This document shows positions 22,441 to 28,541 of a stretch of 48,632 nt of DNA, piece by piece. How positions within the stretch are numbered: position 1 is the first letter of the stretch; each line of letters starts with the position of its first letter. Origin of the DNA: Thermomicrobium sp. Lineage in GTDB: Bacteria; Chloroflexota; Chloroflexia; Thermomicrobiales; Thermomicrobiaceae. Both the position numbers and the translations under genes were made by a program. The DNA lies in contig JANZZC010000060.1 of NCBI GenBank assembly GCA_026419575.1, positions 1 through 48,632 on the forward strand. The letters are read 5' to 3'. Under the pieces are notes generated by a model. It made no database searches and was not told the DNA's origin. It saw only the letters and a list, made by a program, of their open reading frames with translations.

Positions 22441-22905
22441 GTGCGGGTTCTCGTCCAGCGGGTCAGCCGGGCGAGCGTGTCGGTCGATGGCCGGATCGTC
22501 AGTGCGATCGGCCCCGGTCTCCTGCTCCTGGTCGGTGTCCGCCGAGGAGACGACCCTGCGATCGCGGCCTGGATGGCGCAGAAGGTCGCCAATCTCCGCA
22601 TCTTCGAGGACGACGCGGGGAAGATGAACCGCTCGGTTCTCGAGGTCGGCGGAAGCACGCTCGTCGTATCCCAGTTCACGCTCTATGCCGACGTGCGCAA
22701 GGGACGGCGGCCGAGTTTCGTCGAGGCAGCACCGCCGGAGGAGGCGCGTCCGCTCGTGGACGCCTTCGCTGACGCGCTGCGCCGACTCGGCCTCGCGGTG
22801 GAGACCGGAGTCTTCGGCGCGCACATGCAGGTCGAACTCGTGAACGATGGCCCGGTGACGATCTGGCTCGACAGCGCCGAGCTGCGCGGAACGCCGGAAG
22901 ACTAG
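22441..22905 (+). CDS. dtd: D-aminoacyl-tRNA deacylase
   Basis: A 154-residue DTD, which removes D-amino acids and glycine from mischarged t[22 protein letters not shown] has the catalytic SQFTL motif and [12 protein letters not shown] the (G/N)xxPVT motif with its cis Gly-Pro. GTG start at 22441, 14 bases after ispF, preceded by GAGAGGTGCA. Confidence 0.93.
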
Positions 22906-22980: not shown

Positions 22981-23598
22981 GTGTACTGCCCGCAGTGTGG
23001 TCAGCGGATCGGTGACGAGCAGCGTACCTGCCCGTTCTGCGGGACGACTGTGCCGGACGAGGCCTCGGGGACGGGTACCTGCCCGGAATGCGGGGCTCCG
23101 CGAGCTCCCGAGGATACCTATTGCCGCCGGTGCGGCGTGGTGCTGCCGCTCGACTTGGCGGCACTCGGGCTGGATGAAAGCCTAGCGGGCCGTGAGACCG
23201 GCTCGTCCGCGCTGGAACTCCCCGAGTGGCTGCAGCCTGCGGACATCGGAGCAGGGGGTAGCGCGTTCCCGAGCGATCTGGATCTCCCGGACTGGTTGCG
23301 CGAACCGGAGTCCACGAGCGTCGGTTCGGTGGAGTCGCCGGTGCCGAGCGTGGAATTCGCGGTGCCGCGCGTCCCCGCTGTCTGGGGTCGGTCGGCGGCA
23401 CAAGAGGCCGGTGCGGAGCGTCTCTTCGAGCCGTTGCCCTTGCTCCTCGTGCCGGAGGTGCGGCCGGCGCAGGCGATGCCGACTGGTGCCGAGGCGAACC
23501 TACAAGCAGGGGGCCACAACCTCGCCCGCGTGGCGCTCATCCTCGCGCTGGCCGTCTTGATCGGCGTGACCATCTACATCGTCTGGCTGAACCGGTGA
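22981..23598 (+). CDS. Double zinc-ribbon protein with C-terminal membrane anchor
   Basis: A 205-residue protein with two zinc ribbons at the N-terminus (CPQCGQRIGDEQRTCPFCG and CPECGAPRAPEDTYCRRCG), a low-complexity acidic middle with two similar short motifs (LELPEWLQP and LDLPDWLREPE), and a final membrane segment (VALILALAVLIGVTIYIVWL). Topology would put the ribbons in the cytoplasm. GTG 22981 follows GGGGGAGCGC; the track start at 22915 lies upstream of the predicted promoter and is rejected. It stands 34 bases before the MutL-like gene. Function unknown. Confidence 0.75.
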   Translation: MYCPQCGQRIGDEQRTCPFCGTTVPDEASGTGTCPECGAPRAPEDTYCRRCGVVLPLDLAALGLDESLAGRETGSSALELPEWLQPADIGAGGSAFPSDLDLPDWLREPESTSVGSVESPVPSVEFAVPRVPAVWGRSAAQEAGAERLFEPLPLLLVPEVRPAQAMPTGAEANLQAGGHNLARVALILALAVLIGVTIYIVWLNR

Positions 23599-23632
23599 CA
23601 GGCGGAGGTCGACCGGTGACGAGGGAGGGCCG

Positions 23633-25285
23633 ATGCACAGCGCGGTAGTCCTTTCGCTCGGGCGGTCGCATTCCCGCGTCGTTCTCGTCGATCGAGCCGA
23701 GGGGCAACCGCGGCTCCTCGGGAGCGTCCCGATTTCTGGCCGCCGACCGCGCGAGGCGCTCCAGGAGGCCGAACGACGCCTCGGACGCGCGTTGCTCGGG
23801 GACGGGCAGCCGATCCGCCCGCGCCGGCCGACCGGTGATGGTGCCGACGCCTGGGTCGTCGTCGGAGCGCCGCTGGTACTGCCGACCCTCGTGCTCGTCG
23901 CGGTGGACGGCGCGCATCCGATCGTCGATGTCGCGGTCCGGGCAGCACAGGCCTCGCTCGTTCGAGTCCACCGCCTCGATACGGACCCGTCGACCAGTCC
24001 GATGTGGCTGGCCCAGCGGCTGGAGAGTCTGCAACCAGCGTTCCTGCTCCTCGCGGGCACGGAAGATCCCGCTCGTTGGGAGCCGGTACTGGCTGGCATC
24101 GCGAGTGCGCTCGGGGAAACGGTGCGTCCGGAACTCGGCATCGTCGTCGCTGCGGAGGGGGTTCAGCAGCGTGTCGCCGAAGCGCTCGGCGAGCACCTCG
24201 ATCTCATGGGAGTCGATCCGGACGCGTTCGTTCCGGCCGAAGTCATCAGTGCGATCGTCGGCGAGTTCCGTACCCGGGCAGCGACGCGGTTGCACGACGA
24301 GCTCGGGGCCGGGTGGGGCGAGCGCGTCGTCGATCGGCTGACCGCTCTGGAGCGAGCGGCGGCCTTCCTCGTCCGTCGAGCCGAGCAGCGGATCGTCCTG
24401 GTCGACCTCGAGCAGGGTACGTTGACGCTCTGGGCTCGCCCGGACGGCATGGTGACGTTGTACCAGGCGGACCGCGAGTTCGGGCCCGATGCGCTGTCGC
24501 TCGCTGACACCGACAGCGAGGCGATCCGTCGCTGGATACCGTGGTCGATGAGCGACGACGACATCGTCGACTGGCTCGCCAATCGAACGCTGCGGGCTCC
24601 GAGCGTCGAGGTCGACGCTGCCGACCAGGTGATCCTCTCGGCGGTGTTTCGTGCGTTGCTCGAACGGAGCGCTGCGCTCGTCGCCGGTGGGATCGCGCGC
24701 GAGGACGTCACGCTCGTCGCGCTCGGGCCGGCGTTCGCGGCCTTGCCACCGGCGCTCGCGACGCTCTGCGTGCTCGACGGCCTGCAGCCGTTGCCGGCGA
24801 ACGGGATCGTCAGTATCGCGCTGGACGAAGCGGATCTGCTCGCGGCCGGTGGTGCGTTGGCCGAGGAGCGGAGCGGCTTCGCGGCGGCGGTTCTCGAACG
24901 CGATGCGTTGCTTCCGCTCGCCCACGCCATCGTGCTCACGGGAGAGAGTCTCGAGGGAGCCATCGCGGTACGTGGAGAAGTCCGGATCGGCGAGACGCTT
25001 CGGCGTTTCTCGGTCCCGTGGGGGAGCCTCCACACGCTCGCGATCCCCTTCGGCGCGACGGTCGAGCTTACCCTCGAGCCGGAGGGCGGCGTACGGATCG
25101 GCCAGCTCGATCCTGGGGTGGCGCTTCGCTTCGCCGGAGAGGCTGCGCTCGGGTGGACGCGACTCGGGATCGTGATCGACGCGCGAGGTCGGCCGGTTCC
25201 CCTGCCGGCCGATCCGGGCGCCCGCGAGCGGCGCCTGCGCTCGTGGCTCGCTGATCTCGGTCATGCGGGAGGAGGCCTTCCGTGA
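23633..25285 (+). CDS. MutL/GlmL-like ASKHA protein
   Basis: A 550-residue protein with the outline of the glutamate mutase L (GlmL/MutL) family, named for the gene beside methylaspartate mutase and having an actin-like ATPase fold. The N-terminus (AVVLSLGRSHSRVVLVD) matches in position the first phosphate loop but lacks the usual DxGST. Later VLVDLEQGTLTLW and, near residue 365, LVALGPAFAALPPALATLCVLDGLQPLP followed by SIALDEADLLAAGGAL fit the family's C-terminal half. No mutase subunits are nearby. ATG 23633 has GAGGGAGGGCCG upstream. Couples by a 4-base overlap to the next gene. The family call is from pattern memory. Confidence 0.6.
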   Translation: MHSAVVLSLGRSHSRVVLVDRAEGQPRLLGSVPISGRRPREALQEAERRLGRALLGDGQPIRPRRPTGDGADAWVVVGAPLVLPTLVLVAVDGAHPIVDVAVRAAQASLVRVHRLDTDPSTSPMWLAQRLESLQPAFLLLAGTEDPARWEPVLAGIASALGETVRPELGIVVAAEGVQQRVAEALGEHLDLMGVDPDAFVPAEVISAIVGEFRTRAATRLHDELGAGWGERVVDRLTALERAAAFLVRRAEQRIVLVDLEQGTLTLWARPDGMVTLYQADREFGPDALSLADTDSEAIRRWIPWSMSDDDIVDWLANRTLRAPSVEVDAADQVILSAVFRALLERSAALVAGGIAREDVTLVALGPAFAALPPALATLCVLDGLQPLPANGIVSIALDEADLLAAGGALAEERSGFAAAVLERDALLPLAHAIVLTGESLEGAIAVRGEVRIGETLRRFSVPWGSLHTLAIPFGATVELTLEPEGGVRIGQLDPGVALRFAGEAALGWTRLGIVIDARGRPVPLPADPGARERRLRSWLADLGHAGGGLP

Positions 25286-26394
25286 GCGTCATGGCCCGTC
25301 TGCCGCTGCTCGCGCTCGACGTCGAGCGTACGGTCCGCCGTCGGTTGATCGCTCCCGAGTTCCGGGTCGCTGTTCCGCAGCTGGTCGAACCCGAGACGGT
25401 CGTCGCGGTCGCTGCGGCCGGTCAGGGAAAGACCGCTCGCGTCGCGATCGCCGTGGAACTCGGTGTCCCCCCGCAGGAGGCTGGGCGCTGTCTCGTCCGA
25501 GCGCTGGGTGACCGTATCGAGGCCGGGGAAGTCATCGCCGCGCGACGGCGCGGTTTGCGCACCGTGCAGGTCACGAGCCCGATCGCCGGGCGACTCCACT
25601 CGTTCGACGAGCGAACAGGGATGCTGGTCATCGAGGCGGAGGCTCCTCGCCAACCGGTACCAGCCTTGGTCGCTGGCGAGGTCACCGGCCTCTCCGACGA
25701 CGCGATCGAGATCCGCGCCATCGGCGATCTCGCCCACGGTGCCGTCTTGCTCGGACCGGAGTGCTCCGGGCCGCTCGTCGTCCTCTCCGATCGGCCGGAT
25801 CGCGAACTCCCACTCGAGGAATTCGACGAGCGGTGCCGAGGGGCAGTCGTCCTCGCCGGGATGACGATGAGTACCGCGGTGCTTCGCCGTCTTCAGGAAC
25901 TCGGTGCTGCGGGGGCGATCGTAGGCGGGCTCTCGGTCAGCGCGCTCGAGCCGTTCCTCGGGGGGAACATGGGCGAACGACTCCGCCAGCTCCTCTCCAC
26001 CGGTACGGTCGGCTGGCCGTTCTCCTTCGGTCTCCTCCTGCTGGAGGGCTTCGGGCGGTTACCAATCGCGCGCCCCGTCTTCGAGCTCTTGCAGGAACGG
26101 CGCGGGCGCTCGGTCGCGCTGCTGCGCGGCGACACGCTGGGACTCGATCGCCCGGCCTGTTTCGTGTCGTCGCGGGGCTTCCACGGCAAGTCGCTCGAGC
26201 CGCTCCCTCTCGAGACCGGGGTACCGGTCCACGTCGGGGTGCCGGCCCGACCAGGAGTGGGCGTGCTCCGCAGCGCTCCGTTCCTCTCCCGTGCGTTCGA
26301 GGGGTGCCCCTTCACCGCGGTGCTCGTCGAGCGTGACGGGCGAGTGGAGCCGTTGCCGGTCGAAGTCGTGACGCCGCTCGGCCTCACTCCGTGA
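25282..26394 (+). CDS. Unknown protein with barrel-sandwich-like N-terminal region
   Basis: A 370-residue soluble protein of no family I recognise. Residues about 75-115 (LGDRIEAGEVIAARRRGLRTVQVTSPIAG) read like a barrel-sandwich hybrid of the lipoyl/RnfC/efflux-adaptor kind. The middle (VVLAGMTMSTAVLRRLQELGAAGAIVGGLS) resembles a Rossmann-like or PTS-like alpha/beta repeat. Start is GTG 25282 inside the MutL-like stop, or ATG 25291. Its coupling to the MutL-like gene suggests a shared process. The last 11 bases overlap the convergent protease gene. Confidence 0.65.
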   Translation: MSVMARLPLLALDVERTVRRRLIAPEFRVAVPQLVEPETVVAVAAAGQGKTARVAIAVELGVPPQEAGRCLVRALGDRIEAGEVIAARRRGLRTVQVTSPIAGRLHSFDERTGMLVIEAEAPRQPVPALVAGEVTGLSDDAIEIRAIGDLAHGAVLLGPECSGPLVVLSDRPDRELPLEEFDERCRGAVVLAGMTMSTAVLRRLQELGAAGAIVGGLSVSALEPFLGGNMGERLRQLLSTGTVGWPFSFGLLLLEGFGRLPIARPVFELLQERRGRSVALLRGDTLGLDRPACFVSSRGFHGKSLEPLPLETGVPVHVGVPARPGVGVLRSAPFLSRAFEGCPFTAVLVERDGRVEPLPVEVVTPLGLTP

Positions 26395-27565
26395 AACGCG
26401 GCGTTCGTTGTCCCCGCCGCCGCTGCTCGTAGATCGCTGCTACTTCGTCCGGCGTGCGCGCGAGTTCCTGCCGCAGCTGCAGGAAGCGCAGGAGCGCGTT
26501 CCGCGTGAGCAACCCGAGGAGTCGACTGTCGTCGACGACCGGGATCTGGTGGATCTCGTGCGCGGCCATGAGCCGGAGGACCCTTTCCAGGTCGTCGTTC
26601 GGCGAGGCGGTGATCAGGCGTTCCCGAGGTGTCATGAGGTCGCGAACGCGTCGGATCGGCCATTCGCTGCGCGGGCTGTGACGGACATCGGTCAGCGTCA
26701 CGATCCCGACGAGACGCCCGTCCTCGACGACCGGAAAGCTCCGGACGTTGTACGCCAGGAGAGCGTCGACCAGTTCGTCGATCGTCAGGTCGGGGGAGAT
26801 CGTCGGTGGCTCAGGATCCATCAGCTGGCCGACCCGAACGCCCTCGAAGAAGCGCCGGATGACGAGCTGCTGGTACGACTGTTGCGCGGCGTTCTGCAGG
26901 AACCAGCCGAGGGCGATGAGCCAGATGCCGGAGAGCGGCGAACGGAAGACGAGGAAGAGCCCCCCGGCCATGAAGAGGAACCCGATCGCGACGCCGATAC
27001 CGGCAGCGATCCGCGTCGCGCGCAGGACGTTCCGCATCGCTCCCCAGAGGAGCGCCCGTAGCACTCGTCCACCGTCGAGCGGATACGCCGGAATCGAATT
27101 GAAGGCGACGAGGATCAGGTTGGCCCAGCCGAGATACTCGAGCACGGCTCCGAGCTGCTGGTTGAAGTCCTCGACGATCGGCCAGAGCAGGATCGAAGTC
27201 GCGCCGATGACGAGGCTGACGAGCGGTCCCGCGACGGCGATCAGGAACTCGTCCCGCGCTCGGCGAGCTTCGTCGGCGAGCTGGGCCACACCGCCGAAGA
27301 TGAAGAGGACGATGCTGATGACCGGGACACCGCGGGACTGCGCCACCAACGAGTGGCCGAGTTCGTGCGCGAGCACCGAGGCGAAGAGCAGGAGGCTGGA
27401 GAGCGCTGCGACGGCCCAGTACGTCCCCGGACCCCAGTTCGGGTACCACGCGGGAAAGACGCCGACGGCGAGCGAATAGGTGAGCAGCGCGAAAACGAGG
27501 AGCCAGCTGTAGTGCAAGCCGATCTCGATACCGCGGATCCGCCCCAAACGAATCGATGCTTCCAT
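26384..27565 (-). CDS. Site-2 protease family M50 peptidase with two CBS domains
   Basis: A 393-residue intramembrane zinc protease. LAHELGHSLVAQSRG (HExxH, near residue 65) and NSIPAYPLDGGRVLRALLWG supply the three metal ligands; about six membrane segments surround them. Two CBS domains form the C-terminal third (LMDPEPPTISPDLTIDELVDALL and LMTPRERLITASPNDDLERVLRLM), usually binding adenosine nucleotides and gating activity. This is the group typified by Methanocaldococcus S2P-CBS. ATG 27565 follows GGGGGGAGCG; the track's start at 28015 would run through the coaE gene. Confidence 0.9.
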   Translation of the reverse strand: MEASIRLGRIRGIEIGLHYSWLLVFALLTYSLAVGVFPAWYPNWGPGTYWAVAALSSLLLFASVLAHELGHSLVAQSRGVPVISIVLFIFGGVAQLADEARRARDEFLIAVAGPLVSLVIGATSILLWPIVEDFNQQLGAVLEYLGWANLILVAFNSIPAYPLDGGRVLRALLWGAMRNVLRATRIAAGIGVAIGFLFMAGGLFLVFRSPLSGIWLIALGWFLQNAAQQSYQQLVIRRFFEGVRVGQLMDPEPPTISPDLTIDELVDALLAYNVRSFPVVEDGRLVGIVTLTDVRHSPRSEWPIRRVRDLMTPRERLITASPNDDLERVLRLMAAHEIHQIPVVDDSRLLGLLTRNALLRFLQLRQELARTPDEVAAIYEQRRRGQRTPRFTE

Positions 27566-27896
27566 CGCTCCCCCCGGGGAATACGCTCGGTTGCCGGGGA
27601 AGCCGCTCCTCGGCGCACCGTCCGATCCCGATCCGGTGCAATCGTAGCACCGCTCCTCTAGGTACCGATGCGCACCCAGCGGCCGGCCGTCGCTGCAGGG
27701 AGAGAGCGGATGTTGGCCGGGAGGCAGGCCGAGGGTGTGCTCCCGTGCAGAGCCGCGATGCCGACACCGCCTCGCGACCGAGGGGCACGTTCGCGGAACG
27801 ATGGACGGCATCTCGCCGGGGTGCACGGCGCCTGCTCGGGCTGGCGTTTCCGACGACGGCTGGCGCGGTTCCGTGGCTCCGCCCTCGGGCATCCGG
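27566..27896. other. 331-nt gap between coaE end and protease start
   Basis: No gene supported. On the minus strand TGCTACGAT (27641-27649) is a possible extended -10 for the protease, leaving a leader of about 70 nt. The rest shows nothing I can name. Confidence 0.5.
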
Positions 27897-28541
27897 TCAT
27901 TCGGCGACGGGATCGGTCGCTGCGTCGGGAGCGAGGCGTCCGATCTTGGCGAGGATTTCCCGCCAGAGCGCGTGCACCTGCCGCTGGGTTTCCTCGAGCG
28001 AGCCGCTGTTGTCAATGACCCGATCGGCGCGGGCTACCTTCTCCTCTTGCGGCGGTTGGGCGCGGATCCGGGCGAGGGCTTCCTCCTCGCTCAGCCCGTT
28101 TCGGGCCATCAGCCGAGCTAGTTGCTGCTCGGGACGACAGGTCACGACCCACACCTCGTCGCAGTCGCGCGCGAGACTCGCCTCGAACAGCTTGATCGCA
28201 TCGATGACGACGACCGGACGGTCGCTCCGCGCGACCCGACGGCGGATTTCGGCGACGATCGCCGGATGGGTGATCGCTTCCAGACGACGCAGCGCTACGG
28301 GATCGCGGAAGACGATCGCCCCGAGCGCACGCCGATCGAGCGAGCCGTCGGGACGCAGCACGGCGGGACCGAACTCCCGTGCGATCTCCTCCAGGATCGG
28401 GCTTCCGGGCTCGGTGAGTTCGCGGGCGACCTGGTCGGCATCGATCGTTTCGGCCCCCAGCGCGGCGAGTTCCCGCAACACCGATGACTTCCCGCAGGCG
28501 ATGTTACCGGTCAAGCCGATGATGTACGGACGACGTCTCAC
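27897..28541 (-). CDS. coaE: Dephospho-CoA kinase
   Basis: A 214-residue CoaE, last step of coenzyme A synthesis. IIGLTGNIACGKSSVLREL is the P-loop; IDADQVARELTEPG, THPAIVAEIRRR and VVVIDAIKLFEASL are family motifs, the last replacing the usual VPLLFE by IKLFE. GTG start at 28541 overlaps the ABC-F stop by 4 bases, so it is translated with it. Confidence 0.92.
   Translation of the reverse strand: MRRRPYIIGLTGNIACGKSSVLRELAALGAETIDADQVARELTEPGSPILEEIAREFGPAVLRPDGSLDRRALGAIVFRDPVALRRLEAITHPAIVAEIRRRVARSDRPVVVIDAIKLFEASLARDCDEVWVVTCRPEQQLARLMARNGLSEEEALARIRAQPPQEEKVARADRVIDNSGSLEETQRQVHALWREILAKIGRLAPDAATDPVAE

Follow-up and report, generated by a model that had tools for sequence, protein, structure and literature searches.

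A gene unit of a zinc-ribbon membrane protein, a GlmL-related protein and a barrel-sandwich-like protein conserved in Chloroflexota, with eroded ATP motifs in Thermomicrobium

Introduction

A 48,632-nucleotide stretch of DNA from the heat-loving bacterium Thermomicrobium sp. (GenBank assembly GCA_026419575.1, contig JANZZC010000060.1; the whole stretch is called the window here) carries three neighboring plus-strand genes at positions 22981-26394, designated A, B and C, and raises the question of what a relative of the mutase accessory protein GlmL (MutL) does with no mutase beside it. An earlier note, made from the sequence alone, had proposed the genes as a module serving some purpose other than mutase upkeep. 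The data support that A-B-C is a real gene unit. Its role is read tentatively: the trio may be the retained core of a membrane complex in which B and C would form an ASKHA switch or adaptor, represented here by a putative pseudo-ATPase scaffold tethered by A. A literature search, with subscription journals mostly outside it, returned no paper describing the cluster, DUF6754, PF13941 or PF20539, and none joining "glutamate mutase L" with Chloroflexi.

Results

The three genes and their conservation

The genes of the trio are as follows.

22981..23598, plus strand: gene A, cytoplasmic double zinc ribbon with two PxWL motifs and a single predicted C-terminal transmembrane (TM) helix (tail-anchor-like)
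23633..25285, plus strand: gene B, 550 residues, predicted ASKHA fold, divergent MutL/GlmL family with a C-terminal extension; pseudo-ATPase as judged by its motifs
25282..26394, plus strand: gene C, 370 residues, with a putative barrel-sandwich-hybrid-like N-terminus, an alpha/beta, protease-associated (PA)-like middle and a KOW/SH3-like C-terminus

The GTG at 22981, taken as the start of A, gives (V/M)YCPQCGQ..., a start common to many homologues. The stop of B and the start of C share four bases (GTGA, 25282-25285), the overlap that had been read earlier, and a purine-rich stretch precedes each start of the trio (GGGGGAG, AGGGAGGG and GGAGGAGG). When the window was compared with genome G001, the ratio of nonsynonymous to synonymous substitution rates (dN/dS) was about 0.22 for A, 0.20 for B and 0.17 for C. 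Because the ratio is this low in all three genes, purifying selection acts on A, B and C.

Of 61 relatives of the window genome, 26 had C and 25 had B, and the order A-B-C was retained in those of the window's family that bear all three genes on one contig. A homologue of A also stands upstream of B in the genomes of family f1 that have the locus. Across 301 Chloroflexota genomes, B and C occurred together in 143, with B only in 29, C only in 14 and neither in 115 (Fisher p = 2e-38, a statistic that ignores shared ancestry). The two genes were adjacent in 89 of the 116 genomes with both positions listed, and in 89 of 89 outside the related families f6-f9. All 27 non-adjacent cases fall in those families, which belong to the window's class; there A and B stay together with a membrane gene, D, described below, and C has moved. 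Chance neighborship of the three genes was rejected on the shared order in relatives and the phylum-wide adjacency of B and C. The gene-neighborhood comparison across Chloroflexota that the earlier note had called for thus found the genes to remain neighbors in relatives, these 27 of 116 excepted. Overall, roughly half of the Chloroflexota genomes sampled retain the B-C pair, which has no name and usually lies in a six-gene membrane cluster.

The six-gene cluster

The alignment of B (A1) contains an IDARGRP stretch, which was used as a search query and returned 482 loci. Clustering of the neighbors around B revealed that in most of the phylum the unit is larger, with the order X-Y-A-D-B-C. X belongs to PF20539 (DUF6754; 9.7e-46), and Y and D are multi-helix membrane proteins of no family, with approximately 5 to 6 hydrophobic segments each in one Chloroflexota member. 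Named records provided 48 loci with sufficient flanking sequence. Of these, 44 had X, Y, A and D beside B, and 39 had all six genes. The earlier proposal of the trio as a module therefore stood for the gene order in the window's family and for the B-C pair, and fell short in extent, the module being larger elsewhere.

One locus in the window's own class, L172, has the complete set, and for this reason the trio is read from its distribution as a reduced state, most likely a derived, trimmed form of the six-gene cluster. No DUF6754 was found in any of the 61 relatives searched from the window's order; the identical search detected it in 24 of 61 genomes elsewhere. In the window, neither Y nor D adjoins the trio, a loss that refers to the neighborhood only, since a genome-wide search for them was not made. 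That the trio can stand alone follows from the ktedonobacterial loci L221 and L230, where A-B-C occurs without X, Y or D. In three loci the gene after C encodes a single-helix protein (L150:8519-9076, L159:8981-9628 and L152:9367-10101); in L150 and L159 it ends in LPNTG, a helix and arginines, which resembles a sortase signal.

Gene B: an ASKHA protein with eroded motifs

B of the window had no Pfam or NCBIfam match, with no family at E ≤ 1 and a score below the PF13941 gathering cut-off. PF13941 (MutL) was matched by 12 of 25 close homologues of B (best, 3e-17), and distant homologues in the phylum scored 200+ bits over the full profile. Because it is the homologues that pass the cut-off, rather than B of the window, the MutL kinship is established by a chain of homology. 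An AlphaFold2 model of B (pLDDT 93.0, pTM 0.92) matched structures of Hsp70, Ppx/GppA and PilM in Foldseek (E 3e-7 to 3e-5), and as modeled, B has the ASKHA fold. The earlier description of B as a divergent GlmL/MutL-like ASKHA protein that lacks the usual DxGST motif was consistent with these matches and with its motifs. Searching PDB sequences with profiles gave nothing informative (SRP and H-protein matches at E > 0.04). In the window's own genome, the one protein that PF13941 picked out was an ASKHA protein of hydantoinase-like type on contig C154, unrelated to B.

The motifs of B, the first two from a motif table, are located as follows.

23645..23680, plus strand: degenerate phosphate-1 site, SLGRSHSR replacing DxGSxxT (49 homologues)
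24386..24430, plus strand: degenerate phosphate-2 site, DLEQGT replacing DxGGxxT
25160..25204, plus strand: hallmark motif G(I/L)xIDARGRP of module B proteins, located in the C-terminal extension that the Pfam MutL profile does not cover

Alignment of 49 B proteins showed that most of the phylum retains the phosphate-1, phosphate-2 and adenosine motifs, whereas members of the window's order have them in eroded form, a pattern that suggests loss of ATP binding there. D516 and R518 in the IDARGRP motif are invariant in the 49 homologues. As the motifs are eroded and yet the genes are under purifying selection, the trio appears to be kept for a task that need not involve ATP. Set against Hsp70 chaperones, which have a substrate-binding domain and J-protein/GrpE partners, B has a C-terminal extension that is strand-rich in the model, and no such partners were recognized in the cluster.

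Gene A: zinc ribbon, PxWL motifs and membrane helix

Four features were located in gene A.

22987..23133, plus strand: double zinc ribbon with four CxxC pairs (PF13240, 3e-11; PF12773, 2.2e-8)
23218..23235, plus strand: first PxWL motif (LPEWLQ); P, W and L invariant in 15 homologues
23284..23301, plus strand: second PxWL motif (LPDWLR); P, W and L invariant in 15 homologues
23530..23586, plus strand: predicted C-terminal TM helix (hydropathy 2.74 over 19 residues)

The PF12773 match is above its cut-off, the four CxxC pairs make up two ribbons, and all eight zinc-ribbon cysteines are invariant in the alignment of A (A3). With one C-terminal hydrophobic helix, A is consistent with the tail-anchored double zinc ribbon that had been supposed. 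Elsewhere in the phylum A is approximately 440 to 1,550 residues long, and in most cases it has zinc ribbons, PxWL repeats (up to 44) and a domain flanked by two TM helices. The larger homologues carry 4 to 44 PxWL copies, far over the expectation from composition (e.g., 44 versus 1.1), and in Chloroflexia A is a long low-complexity repeat scaffold. Three large homologues have 23 to 44 PxWL(R) repeats in a low-complexity region (L168:1094-5734, L166:9126-12194 and L170:1943-5626). These repeats are probably a short-linear-motif array.

Gene C: a barrel-sandwich-like protein

The model of C (pLDDT 94.5, pTM 0.88) and matches among its homologues delimit three parts.

25309..25662, plus strand: barrel-sandwich-hybrid-like part, residues 10-127, with a helical insertion (RnfC_N/Biotin_lipoyl matches in homologues; strand-rich model)
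25837..26169, plus strand: alpha/beta part with an EGFG motif and a weak resemblance to the protease-associated domain (model; no PDB match at E ≤ 0.001)
26224..26376, plus strand: KOW/SH3-like C-terminal barrel (KOW 1.8e-4 in homologue L144; strands in the model)

No Pfam or NCBIfam family was matched by C of the window, even at E ≤ 1, and its homologues match RnfC_N weakly, one of them above the curated cut-off (27.6 versus 25.6 bits, 3.1e-6); the earlier description of a 370-residue protein of no known family was accurate, and the lipoyl/RnfC-like segment that it named is in line with these weak matches. The structural comparison proposed with it gave the ASKHA matches for B, and for C no PDB match at E ≤ 0.001. 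The weak domain matches among homologues suggest a barrel-sandwich N-terminus and a KOW-like C-terminus. PA-domain, NusG and H-protein likenesses cover pieces of C only and were not used as family claims. A lipoyl carrier was rejected, as no lysine is conserved in the barrel-sandwich region of the aligned homologues, and so was RnfC, as C has five isolated cysteines, no CxxC, no flavin/NADH domain match and no structural match over its full length. A single-sequence scan of the genome contigs with C found no relative. In L295 and L303, C appears to bear a duplicated barrel-sandwich region.

The trio is flanked in the window by a D-tyrosyl-tRNA deacylase-like gene (22441-22905) and a convergent M50/CBS-domain metalloprotease-like gene (26384-28015, minus strand), both read from their translations.

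Discussion

A proposed role for the trio

The explanation that we favor, plausible as a whole though short of probable, is that the trio is the core retained from a phylum-wide membrane complex, X-Y-A-D-B-C. When complete, this complex would have X and A as anchored soluble domains, Y and D as multi-helix membrane proteins, and B as an Hsp70-like ASKHA switch whose ATP binding would switch the complex. C would be the partner of B and clamp it onto the complex; binding of C by B is inferred from their adjacency, translational overlap and co-occurrence. The cytoplasmic part of A, zinc ribbon and PxWL motifs together, could serve as a flexible docking arm that brings B and/or C or clients to the membrane. 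In the window's order, which has lost X and the nucleotide-binding motifs of B and lacks Y and D next to the trio, the result would be a constitutive membrane-tethered scaffold held by A. Precedents exist for both elements: PilM, an ASKHA protein, docks on a short peptide of PilN, and GspL of type II secretion has an ATP-independent ASKHA domain. Docking by the PxWL arm and the switch or scaffold role of B are our inference, and the live options for the task of the module are import or peptide processing, envelope organization and signaling.

Several points weigh against this proposal. The loss of motifs is suggestive and no proof of lost ATP binding in B of the window. A of the Bacillota locus L303 is short, with no zinc ribbon and no PxWL motifs, so docking by PxWL is not universal; these elements are either a Chloroflexota elaboration or were lost in Bacillota. 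Nor can tethering to the membrane be general, since no TM helix is predicted for ktedonobacterial A. The separate locus of C in f6-f9, near a histidine kinase and response regulator, could mean that C has a role of its own. Finally, the analogy with PilM and GspL stems from general knowledge and a fold match, not from shared sequence.

Alternative explanations

The cassettes of Bacillota bear on a different reading, in which X-Y-A-D would import or process peptide-like substrates at the membrane, with B-C as its shared, ATP-driven energizer and the trio of the window as a repurposed leftover. One Clostridiales record (L265) has X-Y-A-D-B-C and a second B-C pair, and the 24 of 61 genomes positive for DUF6754 are of its class, with up to 27 copies per genome. 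In the multi-copy Bacillota genomes (27, 10 and 9 copies), B is less numerous, with 7 matches in the 27-copy genome, as would be expected of a shared energizer. Almost all of the fetched Bacillota DUF6754 copies lie in X-Y-A-D cassettes, few of which are followed by B-C. Near the cassettes are peptidases (M20, M23, M24, M28, M50 and S9), beta-lactamase-type hydrolases, amidohydrolases and an oligopeptide ABC ATPase, and B-C pairs without X-Y-A-D adjoin genes for an FtsX-like permease and an ABC ATPase (L295:5674-11893 and L297:3895-12991). These neighbors were, however, hand-picked with no background rate, which makes the excess of peptidases a lead; the Chloroflexota clusters are mostly single-copy with varied neighbors, and the domains of X and A belong to no enzyme or binding family. 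To our knowledge, no transporter is energized by an ASKHA ATPase in this way. The broader claim, that the cluster is a new class of membrane machine, probably a transporter or peptide-processing system energized through C by a GlmL-related ASKHA ATPase, with one B-C pair serving many Bacillota cassettes and the window's order keeping a nucleotide-independent scaffold, is regarded as unlikely, as is the importer itself.

The many-copy X-Y-A-D cassettes are those of L303-L322 (Bacillota genomes G356, G363, G385, G388, G405 and others). A conserved small protein of approximately 130 residues with no Pfam family adjoins B-C in Bacillota (L294:13081-13494, L321:13471-13875, L296:4196-4594 and L315:8368-9093), and a ribonucleotide reductase large subunit with a LAGLIDADG intein adjoins one X-Y-A-D cassette (L308:2302-6132).

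In the Chloroflexia loci L161, L163 and L165, a histidine kinase/response regulator and/or a receiver-domain protein lie downstream of the displaced C. Such genes could belong to an envelope or signaling scaffold, a sensor-relay with C as the output piece. We doubt this reading to much the same degree as the importer: in several relatives of the class, C is accompanied by a histidine kinase/response regulator as well as a second receiver-domain protein, and A is, in Chloroflexia, the repeat scaffold described above. Neither the window nor most of the phylum, however, showed such genes next to the trio, and the arrangement may be a coincidence of this region that a single class inherited.

Less likely still is that B is a reactivating factor for a B12-dependent mutase, acting in trans on methylmalonyl-CoA mutase with A and C as helpers. 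B does lie within the MutL/GlmL family, and although neither methylmalonyl-CoA mutase nor a B12-binding domain was found on the window's contig, both occur elsewhere in the genome (contigs C170 and C159). The earlier statement that the genes are free of mutases hence holds for the neighborhood and the contig and fails for the genome. Of 30 B-carrying genomes tested, 28 have methylmalonyl-CoA mutase and all have at least one B12-binding protein, which leaves room for some link to B12 as such. Because the genome itself has the mutase, the case against a mutase role rests on three other observations. Mutase-linked GlmL, verified beside methylaspartate mutase S and E at loci L300 and L301, forms its own clade with 100/100 support, apart from the B proteins of the trio, which form one clade with 100/100 support; the tree is unrooted, with Bacillota B nearest GlmL, and no direction of change is claimed. 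B is tied to membrane genes, with no mutase beside it in the module loci examined. Two nearly complete genomes, G124 and G226, carry B without methylmalonyl-CoA mutase. In addition, B of the window lacks the motifs that a reactivating ATPase needs, and the usual chaperone of methylmalonyl-CoA mutase is the G-protein MeaB/MMAA (PMC10481361). Together these observations support the suggestion that this GlmL relative has a job unrelated to mutases.

That the trio is a decaying remnant without function is hardly credible, despite the loss of X and of the ATP motifs, and pseudogene status was rejected, as dN/dS is about 0.17-0.22 in all three genes and the frames are open in relatives.

Comparison with known systems

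The retained-core proposal sets the locus against several known systems. With GlmL/MutL (PF13941, NF040745 and TIGR01319; methylaspartate mutase accessory), B has the ASKHA fold in common. Module B proteins differ in carrying approximately 100 extra C-terminal residues with the IDARGRP motif and in having a fixed partner, C, and membrane genes where GlmL has mutase S/E; B of the window also lacks the DxGS/T phosphate-1 and DxGG phosphate-2 motifs. A score as MutL/GlmL ("glutamate mutase L") points annotators to the wrong pathway. PilM of the type IV pilus and GspL of type II secretion are likewise ASKHA proteins within membrane complexes, and PilM is among the structural matches of B (E 2.8e-5), but no PilN/O/P or Gsp genes were recognized in the X-Y-A-D-B-C cluster, and the likeness is one of fold, not of shared sequence. 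For RnfC/NqrA (PF13375 and PF05896), the RnfC_N match is confined to homologues of C, and C is without the RnfC iron-sulfur cysteine motif. DUF6754 (PF20539) is the family of gene X of the full cluster and is absent from the searched relatives in the window's order. That order therefore offers a natural experiment, having lost DUF6754 and the ATP motifs and kept A, B and C under selection, and the module makes testable a protein family that reaches 27 copies per genome in some Bacillota. B can be placed in a known fold family as a derived member without the defining features of the mutase accessory protein, and the module as a whole may deserve a category of its own once its function is known.

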